Of a DNA stretch of 56,471 nucleotides, positions 7,536 to 47,310 are shown piece by piece. A model generated the notes under the pieces. The model made no database searches and was not told the DNA's origin. It was given only the letters and a program-made list of their open reading frames with translations. A program made the translations under genes and the position numbers. Source of the stretch: an uncultured Clostridia bacterium (lineage in GTDB: Bacteria; Bacillota; Clostridia; Oscillospirales; Acutalibacteraceae); NCBI GenBank assembly GCA_944384815.1, contig CALWUW010000030.1, positions 1 through 56,471 on the forward strand, read 5' to 3'. Position 1 is the stretch's first letter. The number at the start of each line of letters is the position of its first letter.

Positions 7536-8984
7536 TTACCACTGCTCTTTCTCCAGCCCGATCAGCCCCATGCACAGGATAACAGCCGCTTCCAGCAAAT
7601 CATCCAAAAGCAGAGCTTCGTCCGGCTGGTGGCCGCCTCCGTGGCCCGGAGGAAACAAAGCGGAATCCTTTTCCCTTCCCGGGAAGCTGGGACCAAATGC
7701 CAGAGCCCGGGGAAGCTTTCGGGCATAGGTGCCGCCGCCCATGGTATAGGGCTCCCGCTGTTCTCCTGTGATACGGTTATAGGTTTCCGTTAAAATGCGC
7801 ACCGCCGGATGCTCTTTGGGGAAGTGATTGGGGGCGCTGTCCCGCACATGGGCAAGGGAAAATCCCAGAGGCTCCGCCAGAGAAGTGATCTGCTGCAGGA
7901 TCCAGGTGGAAGAAACCGTCACCGGATAGCGAATATTAAAATGCAGACGCAGCCGGCCGTTTTCCTCTTTGTGGCACAGGCTGGCCGCGCAGGTCAAAGC
8001 CCCGGACTCCTCATCCTGGCAGGCGATTCCAAGGCCCCGGCCCTCCGTGGATTCTCCGGCTTCCGCAATGAACCGCAAAAGCGCCTGATCCTCTTTTTCC
8101 AGAAGTCCCGCTTGCAAAACGCCGTTTGCCAAAAGCACCAGAGCGTTCTGCCCTCCCTGGGGAAACGCCGCATGGGCCGAAACGCCAAAGGCCCGGATCC
8201 CAAAACATTCCAAACACTTTCCGGGATTTTCCGGATCCTCCATAGTGTCTTCCGTTACGGCAAACCCTTCCGGAAGGCGGGAAATTCCCTCCTGCACCCG
8301 GGGCGTTTTCCACAGCCGGAGAAATGCCTGATCCGGAATCATATTGCTGGCGTTGCCGGCGGTAATTTCCAGCACGTCCCGGGAGAAGGGACGGGAAGAT
8401 TCCAGCCAGATTTCCAGGATCCCTTTCTCCCCGTAGCAAACCGGGAACCCGCAGTCCGTTACAATGGAAAGCTTGGGGCAGGGATAGTGGGACGCATAGT
8501 ACTCCACATCCTCCATGCCCCGCTCCTCATCGCAGCCGAAGAACACCCGCAGAGGATACGGCGTGTCCACCCCCAGCTCCTTCAGGCATTTTACCGCGTA
8601 CAGCGAGGCGATCAGCGGCCCTTTATTGTCCTCCGCGCCTCTGCCGATGAGATAACCGTCTTTCAGCAAAGGCTTTTCCGGAGGAAAGATCCAGTGATTT
8701 CCCAAAGGGACTACATCCAGATGTCCCCAAAGGCCGATACACTGCTGCGCGTCCTCCTCCCGGCCTTCCAGCCAAAGGGCGCCGCAGTGGCCCTGATAAT
8801 TTTTTCCGGAAAATCCGTGCCGGGCGCCGATGCGAAGCATCTCTTCCAGAGCCTCCCGGCAAGGCGATCCGTAAGGAGGTTCCTCCTCCGGCCGGGACAC
8901 GCTGATGATCTTCAGCAGCCGGAGAATATCTTCCGCCATTTCTTCCCGATGCTCCTGCATCCACCGGCGAATTTTCTGTTCCAT
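7536..8984 (-). CDS. M20 family dipeptidase (PepV/Sapep-like)
   Basis: This is a predicted cytoplasmic dizinc dipeptidase of 482 residues. The M20 metal centre is visible: GLWGHLDVVPLG (His and catalytic Asp), GRGAEDNKGP (bridging Asp), GCDEERGMEDVEYY (catalytic Glu pair), IVTDCGFPV, and the C-terminal GGGTYARKLPRALAFGP with GHGGGHQPDE. The inserted lid region and the length fit the PepV branch, which releases amino acids from dipeptides. The ATG at 8984 has AGGGGAG seven bases upstream. The in-frame ATG at 9020 has no site and lies in a 10-bp repeat tract. No terminator separates it from recQ. Confidence 0.88.
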   Translation of the reverse strand: MEQKIRRWMQEHREEMAEDILRLLKIISVSRPEEEPPYGSPCREALEEMLRIGARHGFSGKNYQGHCGALWLEGREEDAQQCIGLWGHLDVVPLGNHWIFPPEKPLLKDGYLIGRGAEDNKGPLIASLYAVKCLKELGVDTPYPLRVFFGCDEERGMEDVEYYASHYPCPKLSIVTDCGFPVCYGEKGILEIWLESSRPFSRDVLEITAGNASNMIPDQAFLRLWKTPRVQEGISRLPEGFAVTEDTMEDPENPGKCLECFGIRAFGVSAHAAFPQGGQNALVLLANGVLQAGLLEKEDQALLRFIAEAGESTEGRGLGIACQDEESGALTCAASLCHKEENGRLRLHFNIRYPVTVSSTWILQQITSLAEPLGFSLAHVRDSAPNHFPKEHPAVRILTETYNRITGEQREPYTMGGGTYARKLPRALAFGPSFPGREKDSALFPPGHGGGHQPDEALLLDDLLEAAVILCMGLIGLEKEQW

Positions 8985-9022
8985 GTTTTTCTCCCCTTTC
9001 GTCAGGCTTTCCTGTGACATTT

Positions 9023-9062
9023 CTTGCGTTATCTTGCGTTATCTTGCTTTATCCTGTTTCAT
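9023..9062. repeat. Four 10-bp tandem units upstream of the dipeptidase gene
   Basis: CTTGCGTTAT twice, CTTGCTTTAT, then CCTGTTTCAT, in exact 10-bp phase, directly upstream of the dipeptidase ribosome site. Confidence 0.75.
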
Positions 9063-11329: not shown

Positions 11330-11365
11330 CACTTCCGCCTCCTCTCTTTGCAAGCGGTAAACGCC

Positions 11366-11407
11366 CACCGGCCACCGGCCACCCGCTACCGGACACCGGC
11401 CACCGGT
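11366..11407. repeat. Six heptamers CACCGGC-type in the phosphodiesterase leader
   Basis: CACCGGC, CACCGGC, CACCCGC, TACCGGA, CACCGGC, CACCGGT in exact 7-bp phase. The tract lies between the leader hairpin and the ribosome site of the gene at 10223-11329. Confidence 0.85.
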
Positions 11408-11721: not shown

Positions 11722-12621
11722 TTATAATTTTTTTATTGGCCTTAAAACCTGATAACCTCGATCCTTCCACATATGTCTTTGATAATCTTGACATAACGTT
11801 TCATTCCATTCATACCCCATTGATTTGGGATCAAAATTCCATGCAAGGTCCTCAACGCGTCTCATTACCTCACCGTTATCCCGGAGATAGTCATATTTCG
11901 GATGGCCAAAAACCAAATAATAGCTTTCCGGAATATCTCGTACTTCAAATTTTGGAGGTACGACACCTGAATAGTCTGACGGGACTCCTGTGCCGTAGAA
12001 ATACCCTTTAGTTCCACCCTGATAATACCATCCCGCATGGTGTGACCAAACAACCGGATGCTGAAATGGTATAAAGCTTTCCAAAATACCTTCAATTTCA
12101 TCAAAATCAGGACGTCTTTCAAAATCCCAGTACCCTTTCGCATTCAAATCATATAATCCAATAAATCTGTGTGCAGGAATATGTTCTACCCATATCTGCG
12201 GACTGGTTAAAATGTTTTCACTCATTTTGACAACCCCTTTTACAATATAATGAGAAGGATTCAGAACGACTTTCCGTATGGGAAGCGGAATTGGAACAGG
12301 ATATTTTCTGTATACAGATGGTGTACATCCATATGTATACTGGAAAGCCCTCGTCAGGGCTGCCTGTGACGAATATCCATATTCCAAAGCTATATCGATG
12401 ATTGGCTTTTTTGTATCTCGGACTTGTATAGTTGCGTGATACAGGCGTCTCCCGGCTAAATATTGTTTTAATGTCATGCCGACTACAAGGCGGAACTGAC
12501 GTGAACAATAAAATTTCGAATAATGCAGAGATCGAGAGATGCTGTCAAGTGTAGGATTTTCCGTTATATGTTCCTCTATAAAATCAATCATCTTCTGAAC
12601 TTCGTAATTCCACTCATACAT
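11722..12621 (-). CDS. AraC family regulator with GyrI-like effector domain
   Basis: This 299-residue protein has the DNA-binding half first. Residues about 8-105 hold two helix-turn-helix units (PTLDSISRSLHYSKFYCSRQ and IIDIALEYGYSSQAALTRAF, ending TPSVYRK), as in the MarA/Rob/SoxS group. Residues about 135-295 form a GyrI/SOUL-like small-molecule binding domain (HIPAHRFIGLYDLN, YYLVFGHPKYDYL). Rob-like fusions of this type sense lipophilic compounds or drugs and activate efflux or stress genes. AGGAGGTG precedes the ATG by seven bases. No divergent target gene is next to it. It is AT-rich and flanked by two similar hairpins, which suggests a mobile cassette. Confidence 0.88.
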   Translation of the reverse strand: MYEWNYEVQKMIDFIEEHITENPTLDSISRSLHYSKFYCSRQFRLVVGMTLKQYLAGRRLYHATIQVRDTKKPIIDIALEYGYSSQAALTRAFQYTYGCTPSVYRKYPVPIPLPIRKVVLNPSHYIVKGVVKMSENILTSPQIWVEHIPAHRFIGLYDLNAKGYWDFERRPDFDEIEGILESFIPFQHPVVWSHHAGWYYQGGTKGYFYGTGVPSDYSGVVPPKFEVRDIPESYYLVFGHPKYDYLRDNGEVMRRVEDLAWNFDPKSMGYEWNETLCQDYQRHMWKDRGYQVLRPIKKL

Positions 12622-12722
12622 ACGCTTTCACCTCCTTCTGAACTATATTATACTTAAACATAATCATGATGAGCTTTACATAAGTTGCAGTAAGTAGAGA
12701 GTAAAAATATCATAAATAAAAC

Positions 12723-21493: not shown

Positions 21494-21549
21494 CGTCAAA
21501 CGGTAAATGGTAAATGGTAAACGGCAAACGGCAAACGGCGGACGTTTAA
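21494..21549. repeat. Heptamer tract CGGTAAA/CGGCAAA upstream of YfhO
   Basis: CGTCAAA, CGGTAAA, TGGTAAA, TGGTAAA, CGGCAAA, CGGCAAA, CGGCGGA, CGTTTAA in exact 7-bp phase, 47 bp before the YfhO start. The reverse complement GTTTGCC/GTTTACC is the unit found at 38025-38052, and CCGTTTG at 31582 is the same word. Confidence 0.9.
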
Positions 21550-26902: not shown

Positions 26903-26973
26903 GCCATCGAGGCACCGAGGCGTTGAGCGCTGGGCTGTCGAGCTGTCGAGCCATCAAGCCATCGAGCCATTCG
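26903..26973. repeat. Octamer tract GCTGTCGA/GCCATCGA
   Basis: GCCATCGA, GGCACCGA, GGCGTTGA, a 7-bp unit, GCTGTCGA twice, GCCATCAA, GCCATCGA and GCCATTCG follow one another in the convergent gap before the gene at 27009. Confidence 0.8.
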
Positions 26974-27323: not shown

Positions 27324-27375
27324 CCCTTCTCCTCCTATCCTTGTGTGTACCTGCTATGGTCCCGTTGCTGCGGGT

Positions 27376-27423
27376 CTGTGTGTCTGTGTACCTGTATGTC
27401 TGTATATCTGTATATAACGCTGT
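27376..27423. repeat. Octamer tract CTGTGTGT/CTGTATAT
   Basis: CTGTGTGT, CTGTGTAC, CTGTATGT, CTGTATAT, CTGTATAT, AACGCTGT in 8-bp phase, between the HtrA gene and the small gene at 27009. Confidence 0.8.
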
Positions 27424-31540: not shown

Positions 31541-31560
31541 ATACGACTCTCCTTTGTTTT

Positions 31561-31634
31561 CCGTCTGCCGTCTGCCGTCTGCCGTTTGCCGCTTACTGGG
31601 TTTCCTGTTTGCCTGTTTACCCGTTTGCCTGTTT
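31561..31634. repeat. Heptamer then octamer tract upstream of the response regulator
   Basis: CCGTCTG three times, CCGTTTG and CCGCTTA (7-bp phase, 31561-31595) are followed by TCCTGTTT, GCCTGTTT, ACCCGTTT, GCCTGTTT (8-bp phase, 31603-31634). The change of period within one tract is notable. Confidence 0.9.
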
Positions 31635-31872
31635 CCGGCTTTACGGCACTCCAGCACTCCTCTTGTTCCCTATCTTATCTCAGTATACGGGAAGAAAAAG
31701 CAAAAAGGATGAATTTTCCATGAAAGATTTTGAACAGGCTGTAAAATCCGGAGATTTTCCGCTGTTTTTGTTAGTATACCACAATTTTGGACTCCCGCCA
31801 AATGCTTTCTTGTTTTGTCCTTCCCTTTTTTCGACATTTTTTAAATAATCTTTGAATTTCAAACTATTTCTA

Positions 31873-31972: not shown

Positions 31973-32518
31973 ATGAATCCTTCGGCTCACGAATCCATCA
32001 ACCGTTTTTTGATCGAAAATTTTAATTTTATTCTCCGGGCGGAAGAACGGGCGTTATCCCATTACCAAAACGCTCTTTTGTCCGTAACGGAATTTCATGT
32101 TTTGGAAGCGGTTTCCCTGGGGCAGGAAGAATCCCGGAACACCATGGGGGAAATCGCCCGAAAACTGGGGATCACCATGGGATCCCTGACCACTGCCGTA
32201 AAAACCCTGGAAAAAAAAGGGTGCCTGCTGCGCCTGCGCAGCTCTCCGGACCGTCGGATCGTCCGCCTGGAGCTGACAGAAAAAGGAAAGTCCGCCAACC
32301 AATACCATCAGGCTTTTCACACAGCTATGGTCTCCGCTGTGGCCCAAGGGCTTTCCCCGGAGCAGCTTGCGGTTCTGACCCGTTCTCTGGAGCTTTTATC
32401 CGCCTATTTTTCTCGCGCGGGAAGCGCCGGCTTTTCCTTTCCCTTAGAGGAAAATACGAAAGCCGCCCCTGATGCTCTCCCGCCGGATCCCGGAAAGGAA
32501 GATGCCATTTATGGTTAA
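31973..32518 (+). CDS. MarR family transcriptional regulator
   Basis: This 181-residue winged-helix regulator has FHVLEAVSLGQEESRNTMGE, IARKLGITMGSLTTAVKTLE (recognition helix) and the wing LLRLRSSPDRRIVRLELTEK, as in MarR/FabT-type repressors. The ATG at 31973 follows AAAGGAG by eight bases. Its end overlaps the start of degV by eight bases, so the two are co-translated. Because DegV proteins bind fatty acids, a FabT-like role in lipid control is an attractive guess, but no fab genes are nearby. Confidence 0.9.
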   Translation: MNPSAHESINRFLIENFNFILRAEERALSHYQNALLSVTEFHVLEAVSLGQEESRNTMGEIARKLGITMGSLTTAVKTLEKKGCLLRLRSSPDRRIVRLELTEKGKSANQYHQAFHTAMVSAVAQGLSPEQLAVLTRSLELLSAYFSRAGSAGFSFPLEENTKAAPDALPPDPGKEDAIYG

Positions 32519-33356
32519 AATTGTACTGGACAGCACAACGGACATTTCTCCCCGGGAAGCCCGAGAACTGGGGGTATATGTAGCGCCCCTGACGGTCACC
32601 ATTGACGGAAACGAATATCGGGATGGGGTAGATCTTACCCCCGCGCAGTTTTTTGAGAAACTGCAAACCTGCAAATCCATCCCTACCACCAGCCAGGTCA
32701 ATTCCGCCGGGTTTATGGATCTTTTCAAATCCCTGCTTTCAGAGCCGGAGGATGAGATCCTGGGGATTTTCATTTCTTCCCGTCTCAGTGGGACCTTTCA
32801 GTCCGCCTCCATTGCCCGGAACACCTTCCCCCGGCACAGCATTCACCTGGTGGACAGCGGCAGCGGCTCCTTCGGCACGGACCTTCTGGTGCGGGAAGCG
32901 CTGCGGCTTCGGGATCAGGGCTGCAGAGCTGAAGAAATCGCCCGGGAACTGAATCGGATCAAAGACCGTGTCCGGATCCTGGCCACACTGGACACGCTGA
33001 AATTTCTTCTGAAAGGCGGCCGCCTTTCCCCCACCTCCGCCATTGTGGGAACTTTGCTCCATGTAAAACCCATTATGGGCGTCAGCGGCGGAAAAATCGA
33101 AGTGGTGAAAAAGGTCCGGGGAACAGCAGCAGCCCACGCCTGGATCGCTTCCTACCTTTCCCAGGGAAAGATCGACCCCCGCTATACGCCCCGGCTGGGT
33201 TCTGCTCAGTGCCCGGAGCTTCTCCGTTCTTTTACACGCTGCCTGAAAGAAAAAGGCCTTTCCCCGGAATCCTGGGGGCATACGGATATTGGCGTGGTCA
33301 TCGGCACCCATACGGGCCCCGGCTGTGTGGGCGTAGCTTACATAGAGCGGCCCTGA
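32511..33356 (+). CDS. DegV family fatty-acid-binding protein (FakB-like)
   Basis: This 281-residue soluble protein resembles DegV/FakB, which holds a fatty acid for phosphorylation by FakA. It has the N-terminal VKIVLDSTTDISPREARELG, the short TTSQVNSAGFMDLF, ISSRLSGTFQSA (carboxylate-binding Ser region), LVDSGSGSFGTDLLVREAL, LLKGGRLSPTSAIVGTLLHV and VKPIMG, and the C-terminal VVIGTHTGPGCVGVAY. The ATG at 32511 overlaps the end of marR. An octamer array begins exactly at the stop codon. No fakA gene is in the window. Confidence 0.92.
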   Translation: MVKIVLDSTTDISPREARELGVYVAPLTVTIDGNEYRDGVDLTPAQFFEKLQTCKSIPTTSQVNSAGFMDLFKSLLSEPEDEILGIFISSRLSGTFQSASIARNTFPRHSIHLVDSGSGSFGTDLLVREALRLRDQGCRAEEIARELNRIKDRVRILATLDTLKFLLKGGRLSPTSAIVGTLLHVKPIMGVSGGKIEVVKKVRGTAAAHAWIASYLSQGKIDPRYTPRLGSAQCPELLRSFTRCLKEKGLSPESWGHTDIGVVIGTHTGPGCVGVAYIERP

Positions 33357-33611
33357 GCCTCTGAGCCCCTGATTCCTTGGGTTTCTTGGTTCCTTGGTTT
33401 CATTGCTCCCTGGTTCTCTGGTTCTCTGCTCTTTTCGTTCCATACTTTTGCGAACCTGTGAACCTGTGAACCTGTGAACCTGTAATTCTGTAATCTTGTA
33501 ATCTTGTGAGCTTGTGAGCCGGTGATCTTGTGATCTTATAGTCTTATAATCTTGTGGTTTTGTGCATTCACGGCTTCACGGTTTAACGGCTTCACAGCTT
33601 CGTGGCTTTAT
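33355..33611. repeat. About 32 phased degenerate octamers
   Basis: Starting at the degV stop codon, 8-bp units follow one another for 257 bp with a single 1-nt slip at 33379. Examples are GAGCCTCT, GGTTCCTT, GGTTCTCT twice, GAACCTGT four times (33452-33483), AATCTTGT, GAGCTTGT, GATCTTGT, GATCTTAT, GGCTTCAC and GGCTTTAT. Neighbouring units are more alike than distant ones, as expected from serial slippage. The gap 33357-33738 holds no gene, only this array and the terminator. Confidence 0.9.
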
Positions 33612-33641
33612 AATTTCCTGCTTCCGGTTTTCCGGTGCAAC

Positions 33642-33679
33642 ACAGAACCCCTCCGAGCGCTGGCCCGGAGGGGTTCTGT
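33642..33679. terminator. Bidirectional terminator in the convergent gap
   Basis: A 14-bp perfect stem ACAGAACCCCTCCG/CGGAGGGGTTCTGT (33642-33655 with 33666-33679) is followed by a T-rich run on the plus strand. It separates degV from the convergent membrane protein gene. Confidence 0.85.
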
Positions 33680-33738
33680 TTCTTCTACTTTTTCTGCTTC
33701 CTAAACGCTTATTTTTCCGAATCCGTCTTGGGAACTAC

Positions 33739-34602
33739 TTATGAAACAGTTCCTGAAGCCGTTTTTGGTTTCCGTTTCCGGAAAACGAAAACCGTGAAAA
33801 ATACCGCCACACAGAATAAAATTACATATACTGTGTCTTCCCACTGCCATATGGACACATCCAGATCCTGGGAACGGTAAATCCCTGCACTGCGCATCAT
33901 CCTATCGGCGAAAGTCACCTTTTCATAGAGGAATTCTTCCTTGGAACGCCCCATTTCATCCTGAGAAATCGCATCCTGGTATTTTTGCCGTATAGAATCG
34001 TACTGGTCATAAGCGGCCCATTCCACCGCCAGCAGGTCATCCAGCTTTACATAATAATACGGAGCCGCCAATGCCTTTTCCTGCTCTTCCTCTGAAAGGG
34101 GGTCGATGCCATTTTCCGGCACATCCGCTTCCTCCGCTGTCAGGAAGGGGCGAACCCAGCGCCAGCCTTTTTCATAGGTGGGGTAACTGGTGCTGCCGTA
34201 TCCCATAACGGTCTCTCCCCAGCTTTCCAGGCGAATATACAGCGGCGTGCCCTGGGGGATCTCCCGTTCCAAAACCTTGCTTCCCCCTTCATTCCGGTAA
34301 TAGCGAATGGTGCGAGGCGCCTTCACTACATTGGGCGCATCCCCCACTTCCGGATCGCCAATGGAGCCCAATAGAGTCAAGCTCATTCTTTCAACTCTTT
34401 CAAAGTCTATCTCCTCTATGGGAACATTGTCTTCATACTCCGACACCCCGCTTTCCGCATAGGAAAACCGGCTGTTCAGTTCTCTCTGATACTGGCTCCG
34501 TTGAATTCGTCCGCCTACCTGAAACGCCAGCAGACCCAGAAACACCAACGAAAGCAGCCCGGAAATCCCCCGAAGGATCTTACGCACTCTCTCCTTTTTC
34601 AC
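33739..34602 (-). CDS. Unknown membrane protein, partner of the secreted protease
   Basis: This 287-residue protein has an N-terminal transmembrane helix (residues about 12-30), an extracytoplasmic acidic domain (about 31-255) and a C-terminal helix (about 257-275) with a basic tail FRKRKPKTASG. Both ends would be in the cytoplasm and the middle outside. The family is not recognised. The GTG start follows AGGAGG by eight bases, in a leader almost the same as that of the protease gene 16 bp upstream, so the pair is co-transcribed. It could hold, activate or restrain the protease. That is inference from position only. Confidence 0.75.
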   Translation of the reverse strand: MKKERVRKILRGISGLLSLVFLGLLAFQVGGRIQRSQYQRELNSRFSYAESGVSEYEDNVPIEEIDFERVERMSLTLLGSIGDPEVGDAPNVVKAPRTIRYYRNEGGSKVLEREIPQGTPLYIRLESWGETVMGYGSTSYPTYEKGWRWVRPFLTAEEADVPENGIDPLSEEEQEKALAAPYYYVKLDDLLAVEWAAYDQYDSIRQKYQDAISQDEMGRSKEEFLYEKVTFADRMMRSAGIYRSQDLDVSIWQWEDTVYVILFCVAVFFTVFVFRKRKPKTASGTVS

Positions 34603-37854: not shown

Positions 37855-37892
37855 GTAAAATCCTCCTTTTCGCCCGCAGGCGGTGTTCCCTT

Positions 37893-37936
37893 GGCTTTTA
37901 GCTTTTGGCTTTTTACTTTTTGCTTATAGCTTCACG
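37893..37936. repeat. Degenerate 7-8 bp tract before leuC
   Basis: GGCTTTTA, GCTTTTG, GCTTTTTA, CTTTTTG, CTTATAG, CTTCACG: a loose 7-8 bp tract just upstream of the leuC ribosome site. Confidence 0.5.
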
Positions 37937-38524: not shown

Positions 38525-38584
38525 CCTGCTTGCCTGCCTGTTTGCTTGTTTGCCTGTTTCCTTGTTTGACCACTTGCCTGTTTT
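38525..38584. repeat. Octamer tract CCTGTTTG upstream of the Crp/Fnr gene
   Basis: CCTGCTTG, a half unit, CCTGTTTG, CTTGTTTG, CCTGTTTC, CTTGTTTG, ACCACTTG, CCTGTTTT in 8-bp phase, ending a few bases before the ribosome site at 38586. The same word occurs at 31603-31634. Confidence 0.85.
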
Positions 38585-38602
38585 ACAAAGGAGCGATACG
38601 TC

Positions 38603-39265: not shown

Positions 39266-40811
39266 CCTTAGAAGCCTTGGTAGTTTTGGAGGAATCCGTT
39301 CCGGGCTGAGTATTGAGCCAGCGCCAGAAAAACACCATCATGGGGATACACACCAGCGTGGTCAGCACATCCGCCGCCGCCTGGGTGATCTGCACGCCTG
39401 TCAGCCCCAGCCAGGGAGGCAACACAAGGATCAGAGGAAGGAAAAAGATTCCCTGCCGGGCGGAGGAGAGAAAGGACGCGGAAAGAGAACGCCCCAACGC
39501 CTGAAACGCCATGTTCCCAATCACCGTTAAAGGAGAAAGGGGAAGCACCAGGCACTGAGCCCGAAGGGCAAACGCCCCGATCTCGATCACTTTTGGGTCG
39601 TCCTTTCGGAACAGCGCCATAATTTCCGGCGCAAAAATAAACCCTATAGCTCCCAAGGCAGTGAGAAGCAGAGTCCCGGCAATCAAACAAAACCGGATGG
39701 CCTGCTTTACCCGGTCTTTTCGCCCGGCGCCGTAGTTGTAGCCTGCCACCGGCTGGAAGCCCTGGCCGAAACCAATCATCACCGAAAGCACAAACATAAA
39801 GATCCGCCCTACAATGGACATCGCCGCCACGGCCTCATCCCCATAAACCGCCGCGCTGCGGTTCAGGGCCACGGTGGCAATGCTGGACAGTCCTTGCCGG
39901 CAAAGAGAAGGAAATCCCGTTTTGAAAATGGACCAGTAAACAGAGATGTGCCGGGCCGCCTGAGAAAACCGCACATGCACCAGGCTCTTTCCCCGGACAA
40001 ACCAAAACAGCAAAATGCAGAAGCTGGCCACTTGGCTGATCATGGTGGCAATGGCCGCTCCGGAGATTCCCATATTCAGCGTAAAAATAAACAAGGGATC
40101 CAAAGCGATATTCAAAAGGCCTCCAAGGCCCAGCCCCACCATGGAAAGCACCGCTCTTCCCTGGGAACGCAGCAGGTTATTCAGCACAAAGGAAGCACAC
40201 ATCACCGGCGCCGCAAATAAAATATACAAAGCATATTCCTTTGCAAAAGGAAGAATGGTAGGGGTGGCGCCTAAAAGCCCCATCAAAGGATCCAGGAACA
40301 AAAGCCCCAGAACCGTCAGCAAAATGCCGATGAACAAAGCGGCATAAAAGGCCCCGGCAGCGGTTTCCTCCGCTTTTTTCTGCTCCTGCCGGCCCAAAAA
40401 CCGGGAAACCATGCTGCCGGCTCCCATTCCCAACGTGAATCCTACCGCCTGGATAATGGCCATCAGCGAAAATACGATGCCCACAGCGCCGGCGGCGCTG
40501 GTCCCCAGCTGAGAGACGAAAAACGTATCCGCCATATTGTAAACCGACGTTACCAGCATACTGATCACCGTAGGGATGGCCATTTTGGTCACCAGCAGCG
40601 CAACGGGTTCACCGGTCATTTTCTCCAGCTGTGCCTTCTGAGCCTCTCCGAAAGACGCCTCTTTTCCTCCCGGCGCTCCGGATGTTCGTGTTTTTTCCCT
40701 TTGCTTCTGTTGTTCCTTTTCTTCCCTGCTCTCCTGTTTATCCTGTCTTCCCTGTTTTCCTTGTTTTTCCTGTTTTCTTTGTTTTTCCTGTTTTTTTTGC
40801 TTTCCCAACAC
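39234..40811 (-). CDS. MATE family efflux transporter with Lys/Gln-rich N-terminus
   Basis: This 525-residue antiporter has a MATE domain (residues about 65-505: VALLVTKMAIPTVISMLVTS, YNMADTFFVSQLGTSAAGAV, SRFLGRQEQKKAEET, GFGQGFQPVAGYNYGAGRKDRV). The first about 60 residues are almost only Lys, Gln, Glu, Gly and Arg and are encoded by a period-9 DNA tract. Translation probably starts at a GTG with GGAGG (40811), so this tail would be made. It would be cytoplasmic and highly basic. A shorter start near MTGEPVALL is possible. The substrate is unknown. Confidence 0.9.
   Translation of the reverse strand: MLGKQKKQEKQRKQEKQGKQGRQDKQESREEKEQQKQREKTRTSGAPGGKEASFGEAQKAQLEKMTGEPVALLVTKMAIPTVISMLVTSVYNMADTFFVSQLGTSAAGAVGIVFSLMAIIQAVGFTLGMGAGSMVSRFLGRQEQKKAEETAAGAFYAALFIGILLTVLGLLFLDPLMGLLGATPTILPFAKEYALYILFAAPVMCASFVLNNLLRSQGRAVLSMVGLGLGGLLNIALDPLFIFTLNMGISGAAIATMISQVASFCILLFWFVRGKSLVHVRFSQAARHISVYWSIFKTGFPSLCRQGLSSIATVALNRSAAVYGDEAVAAMSIVGRIFMFVLSVMIGFGQGFQPVAGYNYGAGRKDRVKQAIRFCLIAGTLLLTALGAIGFIFAPEIMALFRKDDPKVIEIGAFALRAQCLVLPLSPLTVIGNMAFQALGRSLSASFLSSARQGIFFLPLILVLPPWLGLTGVQITQAAADVLTTLVCIPMMVFFWRWLNTQPGTDSSKTTKASKVTASKAGKSQ
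40742..40803 (-). repeat. Period-9 coding repeat at the MATE N-terminus
   Basis: CCTGTCTTC, CCTGTTTTC, CTTGTTTTT, CCTGTTTTC, TTTGTTTTT, CCTGTTTTT, TTTGCTTTC (plus strand) in 9-bp phase encode KQE/KQG/KQK triplets. The word is close to the CCTGTTTG octamer of the gaps, lengthened to nine. Confidence 0.85.
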
Positions 40812-45466: not shown

Positions 45467-46048
45467 ATGAATTTCTTCAAAACCCACCCTAAGCTTTGGA
45501 AAAGGAGCCTGGCGGTTCTGGTAGTTTTGATAGTCGCCGGGGGCATCTGGGCTCTCTATTCCCCCTGGTTTCGGCTGAAGCTGGAGCATGGCTTGGGCTG
45601 CTCCCAGATCACGGAAATCACTTTTAAAGAAGGGGTTCCTCCTGCTCTTATTTCCCATTCGGGAGAAGATCTTTATGTAGATTTTCTTTGGAAAGACGAA
45701 CGGGGAATGCCGGATCTGTCGTCGGGTTTTTTTGTAGAAGAACGTGGTTGGAGCTTGGGGATAGCATCTTATCTGTTACCCATAGAAGGTAAAGAAAGTG
45801 CCAAAACCGTTGATACTGACCTTGCCGTGCTGGTCCGGTGGGTGGACGCTCCGGGGACGGAGCAGACCTTCCCGGTGGAAGAGCCTGTGGACATCCAGGT
45901 GCGCTATTACTCTGTCGGGGACCGCACTGTGGAAGCTGTTCTTTTCTTTCAGGAAGATGACAACTGGAAATATTCAGAGTCCACGAATTATTTCGACATA
46001 CAGTGGAATATCGACAAAGCCTATGAACTGCTGGGGGAAGCTTTCTAA
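45467..46048 (+). CDS. Array paralogue B, unknown membrane-anchored protein
   Basis: This 193-residue homologue of A, C and D has the N-terminus NFFKTHPKLWKRSLAVLVVL, shared with C and D, and a transmembrane helix (about 12-32). LGCSQITEITFKEGVPPALI is shared with C. The variable middle (about 75-120) is unique, then comes the invariant RWVDAPGTEQTFPVEEPVDI. The C-terminal part (FFQEDDNWKYSESTNYFDIQ, then WNIDKAYELLGEAF) is of the B/C type. GGAGGTG site as in all four. Function unknown. Confidence 0.8.
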   Translation: MNFFKTHPKLWKRSLAVLVVLIVAGGIWALYSPWFRLKLEHGLGCSQITEITFKEGVPPALISHSGEDLYVDFLWKDERGMPDLSSGFFVEERGWSLGIASYLLPIEGKESAKTVDTDLAVLVRWVDAPGTEQTFPVEEPVDIQVRYYSVGDRTVEAVLFFQEDDNWKYSESTNYFDIQWNIDKAYELLGEAF

Positions 46049-46118
46049 AGAGTCCGTTCCTTTTTATAGGCTTTGAATTTTCTGCCTTTCTATCCTTTGG
46101 CTATGGAGGTGTACTGAC
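46049..46118 (+). repeat. 70-bp spacer duplicated before array genes C and D
   Basis: The spacer from the B stop to the C start is the same as 46695-46764 (C stop to D start) except about one base near the ATG. It includes TTTTTATAGGCTTTGAATTT and the GGAGGTG ribosome site. Confidence 0.92.
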
Positions 46119-46694
46119 ATGAATTTCTTCAAAACCCACCCTAAGCTTTGGAAAAGGAGCCTGGCGGTTCTGGTGGTCCTGGCAGTGGCCGGGGGCATCT
46201 GGGCTCTCTATTCCCCCCAGCTTCGGCTGAAGCTGACCCACGGCTGGGGCTGCACCCAGATCGCGGAAATCACTTTTAAAGAAGGGGTTCCTCCCGCTCT
46301 TATTTCCCATTCGGGAGAAGATCTTTATGTGGATTTCCTTCAAAAAGACCAGCGGGGAATGCCCGATCTGTCGTTGGGCTCTTCTGGAGAGGACCGTGGT
46401 TGGACTTTTGGACTAGCTCCTTTGCTTCGTTTCCCCCAGGACGGTATAATATCTGTTACCACTAGCCTTGCCGTGCTGGTCCGGTGGGTGGACGCTCCGG
46501 GTACGGAGCAGACCTTCCCGGTGGAAGAGCCTGTGGACATCCAGGTGCGCTATTATTCCGTGGGGAACCGCACGGTGGAAGCCGTCCTTTTCTTTGGGGA
46601 AGATGAGGACCCGAGGAACTCGAAGCTCACGAATTATTTCAATGTACGGTGGAATATCGACAAAGCCTATGAATTGCTGGGAGAAGCTTCCTAA
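46119..46694 (+). CDS. Array paralogue C, unknown membrane-anchored protein
   Basis: This 191-residue homologue begins like B and D. GCTQIAEITFKEGVPPALIS and LYVDFLQKDQRGMPDLSLG follow the B pattern. A unique middle GEDRGWTFGLAPLLRFPQDG is followed by the invariant RWVDAPGTEQTFPVEEPVDI and a B-like end (FFGEDEDPRNSKLTNYFNVR, then WNIDKAYELLGEAS). The 70-bp spacer before it is nearly the same as the one before D, which points to a recent duplication of the whole unit. Function unknown. Confidence 0.8.
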   Translation: MNFFKTHPKLWKRSLAVLVVLAVAGGIWALYSPQLRLKLTHGWGCTQIAEITFKEGVPPALISHSGEDLYVDFLQKDQRGMPDLSLGSSGEDRGWTFGLAPLLRFPQDGIISVTTSLAVLVRWVDAPGTEQTFPVEEPVDIQVRYYSVGNRTVEAVLFFGEDEDPRNSKLTNYFNVRWNIDKAYELLGEAS

Positions 46695-46764
46695 AGAGTC
46701 CGTTCCTTTTTATAGGCTTTGAATTTTCTGCCTTTCTATCCTTTGGCTATGGAGGTGTACTAAC

Positions 46765-47310
46765 ATGAATTTCTTCAAAACCCATCCTAAGCTTTGGAAA
46801 AGGAGCCTGGCGGTTCTGGTGGTCCTGGCAGTGGCCGGGGGTATCTGGGCTCTCTATTCCCCCTGGTTTCGGCTGAAGCTGACCCACGGCTGGGGCTGCT
46901 CCCAGATCGCGGAAATCACCTTTGAAGAAGGGCCTGCCACCTTTCTTGTTTCCCAATTGGGGGAAGAGCTTTATGTGGACTTCCTTCAAACAGATGAGCG
47001 AGGGATGCCCTATCTGCTGTCGGGCTTTTCTTCAGAGGGTTGGACTTTTGGACACGGGGCATATATCCCGCCCCCAAAAAATGAAAAATCTGGTCCTATT
47101 ATTAGTTTGGATGTGCTGGTTCGCTGGGTGGACGCTCCGGGGACGGAGCGGACCTTCCCGGTGGAAGAACCTGTGGACATCCAGGTGCGCTATTATTCCG
47201 TAGGGGGCCGCACTTTGGAAGCTGTCCTGTTCCGCACGGAAGAGGCGGACTATTCCGGTTCCCAGTGGCAGATGGACAAAGCCTATGAACTTCTGGGAGA
47301 AGCTTCCTAA
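46765..47310 (+). CDS. Array paralogue D, chimeric unknown membrane-anchored protein
   Basis: This 181-residue homologue has a B/C-type N-terminus (NFFKTHPKLWKRSLAVLVVL). From about residue 55 it switches to A-like sequence (EEGPATFLVSQLGEELYVDF) and it ends as A does (FRTEEADYSGSQWQMDKAYE). The block GTERTFPVEEPVDIQ between is common to all. It is therefore a mosaic, best explained by gene conversion or unequal crossing over within the array. A terminator follows at 47353. Function unknown. Confidence 0.8.
   Translation: MNFFKTHPKLWKRSLAVLVVLAVAGGIWALYSPWFRLKLTHGWGCSQIAEITFEEGPATFLVSQLGEELYVDFLQTDERGMPYLLSGFSSEGWTFGHGAYIPPPKNEKSGPIISLDVLVRWVDAPGTERTFPVEEPVDIQVRYYSVGGRTLEAVLFRTEEADYSGSQWQMDKAYELLGEAS

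Follow-up and report, generated by a model that had tools for sequence, protein, structure and literature searches.

A drifting octamer array between convergent genes is one of many 7-9 bp tandem arrays in an uncultured Clostridia bacterium

Between two convergent genes of an uncultured Clostridia bacterium (Acutalibacteraceae) lies a tract of about 32 degenerate octamers, and the question raised by this locus is how such a tract arose and whether it is peculiar to its place. The window analysed here, the whole of a 56,471-nucleotide stretch of contig CALWUW010000030.1, holds the array at positions 33353-33608, as delimited by a match-segment scan and lag tests. Its left edge touches the stop codon of a plus-strand gene at 32511-33356, in an ORF open from 32472, which is called degV-type here after the name given to it in an earlier sequence-only reading of this DNA. 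On the other side is a minus-strand gene at 33739-34602, identified from its ORF and without an NCBIfam match in a family scan. Between the array and this convergent gene stands a strong GC-rich hairpin (14 + 2 pairs) with a T-rich tail behind it (33642-33679). Its sequence and predicted fold make it a likely transcription terminator, although a pattern scan picked up the stem in part only.

The sequence-only reading had divided 257 bp, beginning at the degV stop codon, into some 32 units of 8 bp with a single slip. This division stands: the repeated segment starts at 33353 where the ORF ends at 33356, 28 gapless units run from 33387, and the few units before them are offset by one base, which places a 1-nt phase slip near 33379-33387. 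Autocorrelation against shuffled sequence, proposed in that reading as a check, gives a lag-8 self-match of 0.683 for 33355-33611, far above the 0.282 ± 0.028 of dinucleotide shuffles (z 14.5; reached by 0 of 1000). Further peaks are found at lags of 16, 24 and 32 (0.606, 0.532 and 0.507), while lags of 4 and 12 are depressed (0.170 and 0.159). The gradual drift described from the letters is equally apparent, as neighbouring units are 0.685 identical compared with 0.472 ± 0.037 when unit order is shuffled (0 of 20000), and identity declines with separation to 0.32-0.39 at 9-12 units apart (0.375 at ten). The most homogeneous part of the array is a run of four identical GAACCTGT units at 33452-33483, reported by TRF with 100% matches.

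The array is thus real and well beyond chance. Chance origin is ruled out by the 1000 shuffles and by a Markov-3 randomised copy of the window, which yielded no arrays at a laxer threshold. A CRISPR array is ruled out as well, since the 8-mers are contiguous and, as had been remarked, lack spacers. Positions 33000-34000 have no Rfam match at the gathering score (best 22.7 bits against 55, for known families only), which rules out a known RNA gene. With its period of 8 the array falls among the tandem units of 1-11 nt that characterize long simple sequence repeats (LSSRs) of prokaryotes, and its length exceeds chance expectation as modelled on the array and the window rather than on the genome. 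When 33440-33620 was searched against the bacterium's own genome, one other place was matched, weakly (E 0.002).

The array is absent from the corresponding place in a relative. In a congener, the best orthologue of the window's degV-type gene is 66% identical (L009, L057) and retains the upstream genes found in the window, namely a MarR-type regulator and a putative response regulator and sensor kinase. No array lies behind this orthologue, and in the stretch of the congener's degV locus that was read the convergent gene at 33739-34602 has no match. The lack of a significant lag-8 peak over shuffled controls, or the same order conserved in relatives as a coding or RNA gene, had been named beforehand as grounds for abandoning the interpretation of the array as a product of slippage. 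Neither applies: the lag-8 peak stands far above the shuffles, and the congener's degV has no array.

The sequence-only reading treated the array as a single locus, and in this respect it has to be revised: the array is the longest period-8 member found of a genome-wide class. With one detector applied throughout at a minimum score of 16, the window alone contains 13 intergenic short-period arrays, 33353-33608 included, and five more in genes. Those in intergenic DNA include 7-bp arrays at 11362-11406, at 21498-21544 and, upstream of a leuC-like gene named from its ORF only, at 37891-37932, as well as 8-bp arrays at 26934-26970, 27368-27415 and 38527-38586, the last of which has periods of 8 and 16. 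A 9-bp array at 40714-40806 either overlaps the beginning of a MATE transporter gene or immediately precedes it, depending on the start codon, which is uncertain. On the 5' side of a response-regulator gene, named from its ORF, a 7-bp array of CCGTCTG (31556-31594) is followed directly by an 8-bp array of GTTTGCCT (31601-31660), and the units of the two are related as if one base had been inserted. These adjoining arrays, with periods one apart, suggest that a unit which gains a base can found a new period. A 10-bp array (TCTTGCGTTA) at 9022-9062, directly 5' of the minus-strand ORF 7536-9020, is one of two period-10 intergenic cases in the genome sample. At 45467-47310 are consecutive ORFs of 193, 191 and 181 amino acids, perhaps tandem paralogues, and two of the three have a 9-bp repeat in common (46160-46183 and 46806-46829).

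The source assembly comprises 2,004,496 bases in 37 contigs and is 92.6% complete. A sample of 1,052,747 bases of it was searched. Contig C36 (222 kb) contributed 220 kb to this sample, C12 100 kb, C15 80 kb and C13 40 kb; the window was included, as was at most the first 20 kb of every remaining contig. Genes were called with a simple script, so that the line between genes and intergenic DNA is only roughly drawn, and an array that crosses from one 20-kb stretch into the next may have been divided. This sample holds 168 intergenic arrays, 143 of which have a period of 8 (66), 7 (49) or 9 (28), with 25 of other periods. The predominance of heptamers typical of LSSRs is not seen, period 8 outnumbering period 7 and lag 8 being the highest. 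A median array measures 51 bases and 6.2 copies; at 256 bases the window array is the longest in the sample except for a 400-base 18-bp array that the gene caller placed outside genes. From the 81 arrays on C36 and 87 elsewhere in the sample, a rough extrapolation gives 250-300 arrays for the whole genome.

Drift is general among these arrays: pooling those of period 8 gives an identity of 0.756 between neighbouring units and 0.377 between units eight apart. The units themselves are largely unrelated: allowing for rotation and strand, consensus units are distinct in 126 of the 143 arrays of period 7-9. The class is therefore not one dispersed element, and a shared repeat with the same unit at many sites, of the TAACTGA or STRR type, is ruled out. 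Between arrays the units are slightly more alike than random (3.2% of 8-mers within one mismatch against 1.3%) and more A/T-skewed than random k-mers (0.667 against 0.552, p 0.0002), so sequence is not entirely irrelevant. Growth driven by hairpins is not favoured as a general cause, given that self-complementarity is slightly lower in the consensus units than in random ones (p 0.018).

A lag spectrum of perfect matches, scored as runs at least nine bases long per kb, gives the sizes involved. In intergenic DNA of the source genome the values are 0.274, 0.396 and 0.157 at lags 7, 8 and 9, compared with 0.009-0.030 at lags 4-6 and 0.039-0.061 at lags 10-11. Lags 16, 14 and 18 are also raised (0.178, 0.109 and 0.113), as multiples would be. 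Inside genes the corresponding values are 0.0 at lag 7, 0.004 at lag 8 and 0.047 at lag 9, and 48 of the 49 arrays found there have periods divisible by three, as do LSSRs in genes and all 11 in-gene arrays of the other genera sampled. The size spectrum and the in-frame periods are what is expected of a largely sequence-indifferent duplication filtered by reading-frame selection.

For comparison, two congeners (G001 and G002) were used together with the dnaA regions of 40 genomes, each of a different further genus and each sampled as a single stretch of 6.9-20 kb (753,020 bases in total, with one run of N omitted). Arrays number 727 per Mb of intergenic DNA in the source genome (168), 63 (4) and 18 (1) in the congeners and 100 (16) in the other genera, where 5 of the 16 have a period of 7-9. 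In any context, eight arrays of period 7-9 occur across the 40 dnaA regions; the matched 20-kb dnaA region of the source genome has seven arrays, all of period 7-9, and the richest of the 40 genera has four of any period. Runs at lags 7-9 amount to 0.031-0.047 per intergenic kb in the congeners and 0.025-0.038 in the other genera, and over lags 4-30 reach at most 0.072 and 0.114, respectively, the latter being highest at lags 6 and 21. Within genes, lag-9 runs amount to 0.015 and 0.010 per kb in the congeners and to 0.038 in the other genera, the last being near the source genome's own value, and arrays number 59.6 per Mb in the source genome, 18.5 in the other genera and 0 in 196 and 193 kb of the congeners. 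A 50-kb stretch around oriC of E. coli K-12 contains no arrays. The burst is thus genome-wide in the source species and is not found in the sampled relatives; the 40 genomes may have bursts outside the sampled dnaA regions. One congener does contain a perfect ten-copy octamer (CTCTTGAT) at the start of G001 contig C26 (L013, 1-82), so the process is not wholly absent there, and the assembly may have broken at this point inside a longer, young array. As to whether arrays break the assembly of the source genome itself, among the contig starts examined only that of C17 began in a repeat, of 18 bp (L082, 1-249), which on reading by eye apparently codes for a collagen-like repeat.

Orthologous gaps between genes indicate the direction of the change. 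Gaps on ten sampled contigs were compared with the sampled parts of the congeners, the relatives' gaps being projected from alignments. The comparison kept hits of at least 45% identity and half coverage whose pairs have the same orientation, with gaps of 40 bases or more in the source genome and between -200 and 3000 in projection. Array-bearing gaps (n = 26) are a median of 130.5 bp longer than in the congeners, and -3.5 bp when array bases are left out; 16 are longer here and 10 are not. Array-free gaps (n = 32) are 61.5 bp shorter here, with 8 longer, and the length difference between gaps with and without arrays has a one-sided p of 0.0055. The comparison suggests that the arrays represent net insertion in the source lineage.

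Arrays are not spread evenly over the chromosome. Their density per intergenic base is heterogeneous between contigs (chi2 182, df 36): it is 0 for the 100 kb sampled from C12, reaches 1.8 per kb on C36 and exceeds 2 on C13 and C37. DnaA is encoded at C36:21138, and along this contig array density declines with distance from dnaA (Spearman -0.67, p 0.023, 11 stretches). The array-dense contig C33 matches the congener contig to the left of dnaA through two proteins, 87% and 49% identical. In the congeners themselves the dnaA regions are array-poor, with one array in 60 kb and none in 48.9 kb. A mixed bin, in which array-rich and array-poor contigs come from two organisms, is not favoured because arrays occur at low density on many contigs. 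Tetranucleotide distances from the window are unhelpful for this question, as the ranges for the genome's own stretches (0.088-0.269) and for the congeners (0.120-0.217) overlap.

Taken with a probability of about 0.77, the array at 33353-33608 is one product of a lineage-specific mutational process that combines duplication of 7-9 nt, slippage, substitution and purifying selection. According to this reading, an intergenic stretch of 7-9 bases would be tandemly duplicated; slippage between the copies as DNA is synthesized would then lengthen the array by entire units, so that each array keeps its own period. Homology would guide this slippage of 7-9 nt. Substitutions would accumulate meanwhile, leaving near units alike and far units unlike. 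The process would strike many unrelated sequences across the chromosome, and purifying selection would tolerate arrays within genes only where the unit length is divisible by three. Unit slippage with substitution would produce the features observed: drift, stable phase, net insertion, and unrelated units and differing periods from one array to another. No selected function of the window array itself is needed. The combination of slippage and point mutation put forward in the sequence-only reading gains support from the same features, together with the in-frame periods in genes and the lack of an RNA family; that the copying step is slippage, in replication or repair synthesis, is what we infer from them. 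Counting against slippage is that in its plain form it predicts neither the sharp 7-9 peak nor the regional clustering. A bolder and quite tentative version is that a size-selective micro-duplication activity, either carried by the species or released there by loss of a brake, would copy 7-9 bases, with a mode of 8, anywhere in the chromosome and most strongly around the origin. Drifting octamers would in this way be remaking the intergenic DNA.

The sharp peak could be explained differently if the arrays were scars of staggered cuts, in which an enzyme making ends staggered by 7-9 bases, either a transposase that leaves target-site duplications or another nuclease whose cuts are filled in and joined, struck repeatedly. 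Target duplications of 8-9 bases are common among transposons, and a peak at 7-9 without 4-6 or 10-11 resembles a stagger length. Cuts of mixed size, however, would mix periods of 7, 8 and 9, whereas the window array keeps a period of 8 over 28 units, and the arrays grow beside themselves, which needs homology; this explanation is accordingly considered improbable. Less probable still is that the array is a selected regulatory or structural element, such as a spacer between convergent genes that binds protein or acts as RNA, or a tract for phase variation. It occupies the convergent gap between the degV-type gene and the gene at 33739-34602, lying between the degV stop and the terminator-like hairpin, and both its RNA and the other DNA strand fold modestly better than shuffles (z -2.53 and -2.57). 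Such a role is difficult to reconcile with units that are largely unrelated between arrays and with the lack of an array behind the congener's degV. Nor does the placement of the class suggest it: 100 arrays are in tandem, 29 in divergent and 25 in convergent gaps, with 14 at stretch ends, roughly following the gap bases available (116986, 46927 and 26030, respectively). The arrays have no strand preference beyond background either: the coding strand is the A-rich one for 58 of the 88 arrays in tandem gaps and for 190 of 297 array-free gaps, so there is no signal of strand-directed growth. The A-rich strand is the plus strand in 31 of 55 arrays to the right of dnaA and 6 of 10 to the left.

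Loss of mismatch repair might drive the burst in a manner compatible with duplication and slippage, since without MutS or MutL slippage between diverged copies would not be rejected. MutS1 is not found in the 92.6%-complete genome and is present in both congeners, each of which also has one MutL match over the cut-off where the source genome has none. The family is represented by 150 genomes that are 90% complete or better, and MutS1 has a match (E 1e-100) in 147, two of them, G008 and G151, only by pieces under the family cut-off; the exceptions are the source genome, G034 and G087. In a congener mutS1, mutL, miaA, miaB and a putative yggS are clustered. Against this, searches of the source assembly, run in part without a positive control, gave no match for miaA or the putative yggS neighbour, and for miaB only matches of 35-36% and one very weak one, read as paralogues. 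With the neighbouring genes missing too, the block appears to be absent from an incomplete assembly rather than lost, and the mutS1/mutL neighbourhood is probably a missing contig. The other two genomes without a MutS1 match have few arrays in the little that was sampled: in G087 there are periods of 5, 9 and 21 in 20 kb of L153 and a period of 12 in 12 kb, and in G034 none in 4.7 kb. MutS acts on loops of about 4 nt or less. Mismatch-repair loss is given a low probability as the driver; with its whole neighbourhood missing from the assembly, the failure to find mutS1 and mutL says little either way. PolA does not explain the burst, as it is found in the source genome and in G001 and is not found in G002.

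Arrays of this general kind are known. Cyanobacterial STRRs are genome-dispersed intergenic heptamer arrays, and the arrays described here resemble them in being intergenic and dispersed over the genome. Heptamers of Xanthomonas and Nostoc (GGGAATC and GGGGA(T/C)T) are likewise dispersed, but they have a shared, G-rich, quadruplex-capable unit (PMC4692102), and no unit is shared here. LSSRs (Mrazek et al. 2007, as reported in PMC4679880 and PMC4692102) have units of 5-11 nt and are patchy in prokaryotes; heptamers are reported to be the commonest in most genomes, with multiples of three in genes. Their proposed cause is slippage with a unit size set by polymerase contact (PMC4679880). Like LSSRs, the present arrays are short-unit repeats beyond chance, patchy between lineages and in multiples of three within genes; unlike them, the peak lies at 8, with 7 and 9, in place of 7. 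They are also strongly degenerate and regionally clustered, features which LSSR-rich genomes may also have. In marine Beggiatoaceae, 169 intergenic sets of TAACTGA direct repeats are reported from one draft genome (PMC4679880), a number similar to that found here. Their unit, however, is one conserved heptamer in two to six copies, whereas the present arrays almost all differ in unit and have a median of 6.2 copies. Prokaryotic satellites are described in PMC6749651 as species-patchy and in many cases locally born, with some bacterial families derived from hexamer or heptamer repeats; the short class of that survey has units of 10-30 nt, and few species exceed 4 per Mb. Compared with the satellites described there, the arrays here have shorter units, of 7-9 nt, and are far denser, though a different detector was used. 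Among the matches listed in the open-licence literature there is no account of octamer-centred arrays in the family of the source bacterium. The kind is known, and the octamer mode, degeneracy, unrelated units and regional pattern make these arrays a new variety of it.

That bacterial repeats of 5-11 nt have preferred unit sizes is an old observation for which a cause, invoking 7 nt and polymerase contact, is only proposed (PMC4679880). Many independent arrays, mostly of 7-9 nt, beside two array-poor congeners offer a natural comparison for the polymerase or repair difference responsible, and the arrays show one way in which intergenic DNA expands and is turned over. Should a size-selective micro-duplication activity prove to exist, knowing its enzyme would reveal how the step size of long-unit slippage is set. 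A probable coincidence of sequence concerns the window array itself. Two viral contigs, which have no other 7-9 bp array at the loci concerned (L174 and L175), carry identical perfect 14-copy arrays of the octamer present at 33452-33483, at 910-1026 and 12544-12658, respectively, with matching flanks; the octamer common to the window and these contigs is probably a product of chance.
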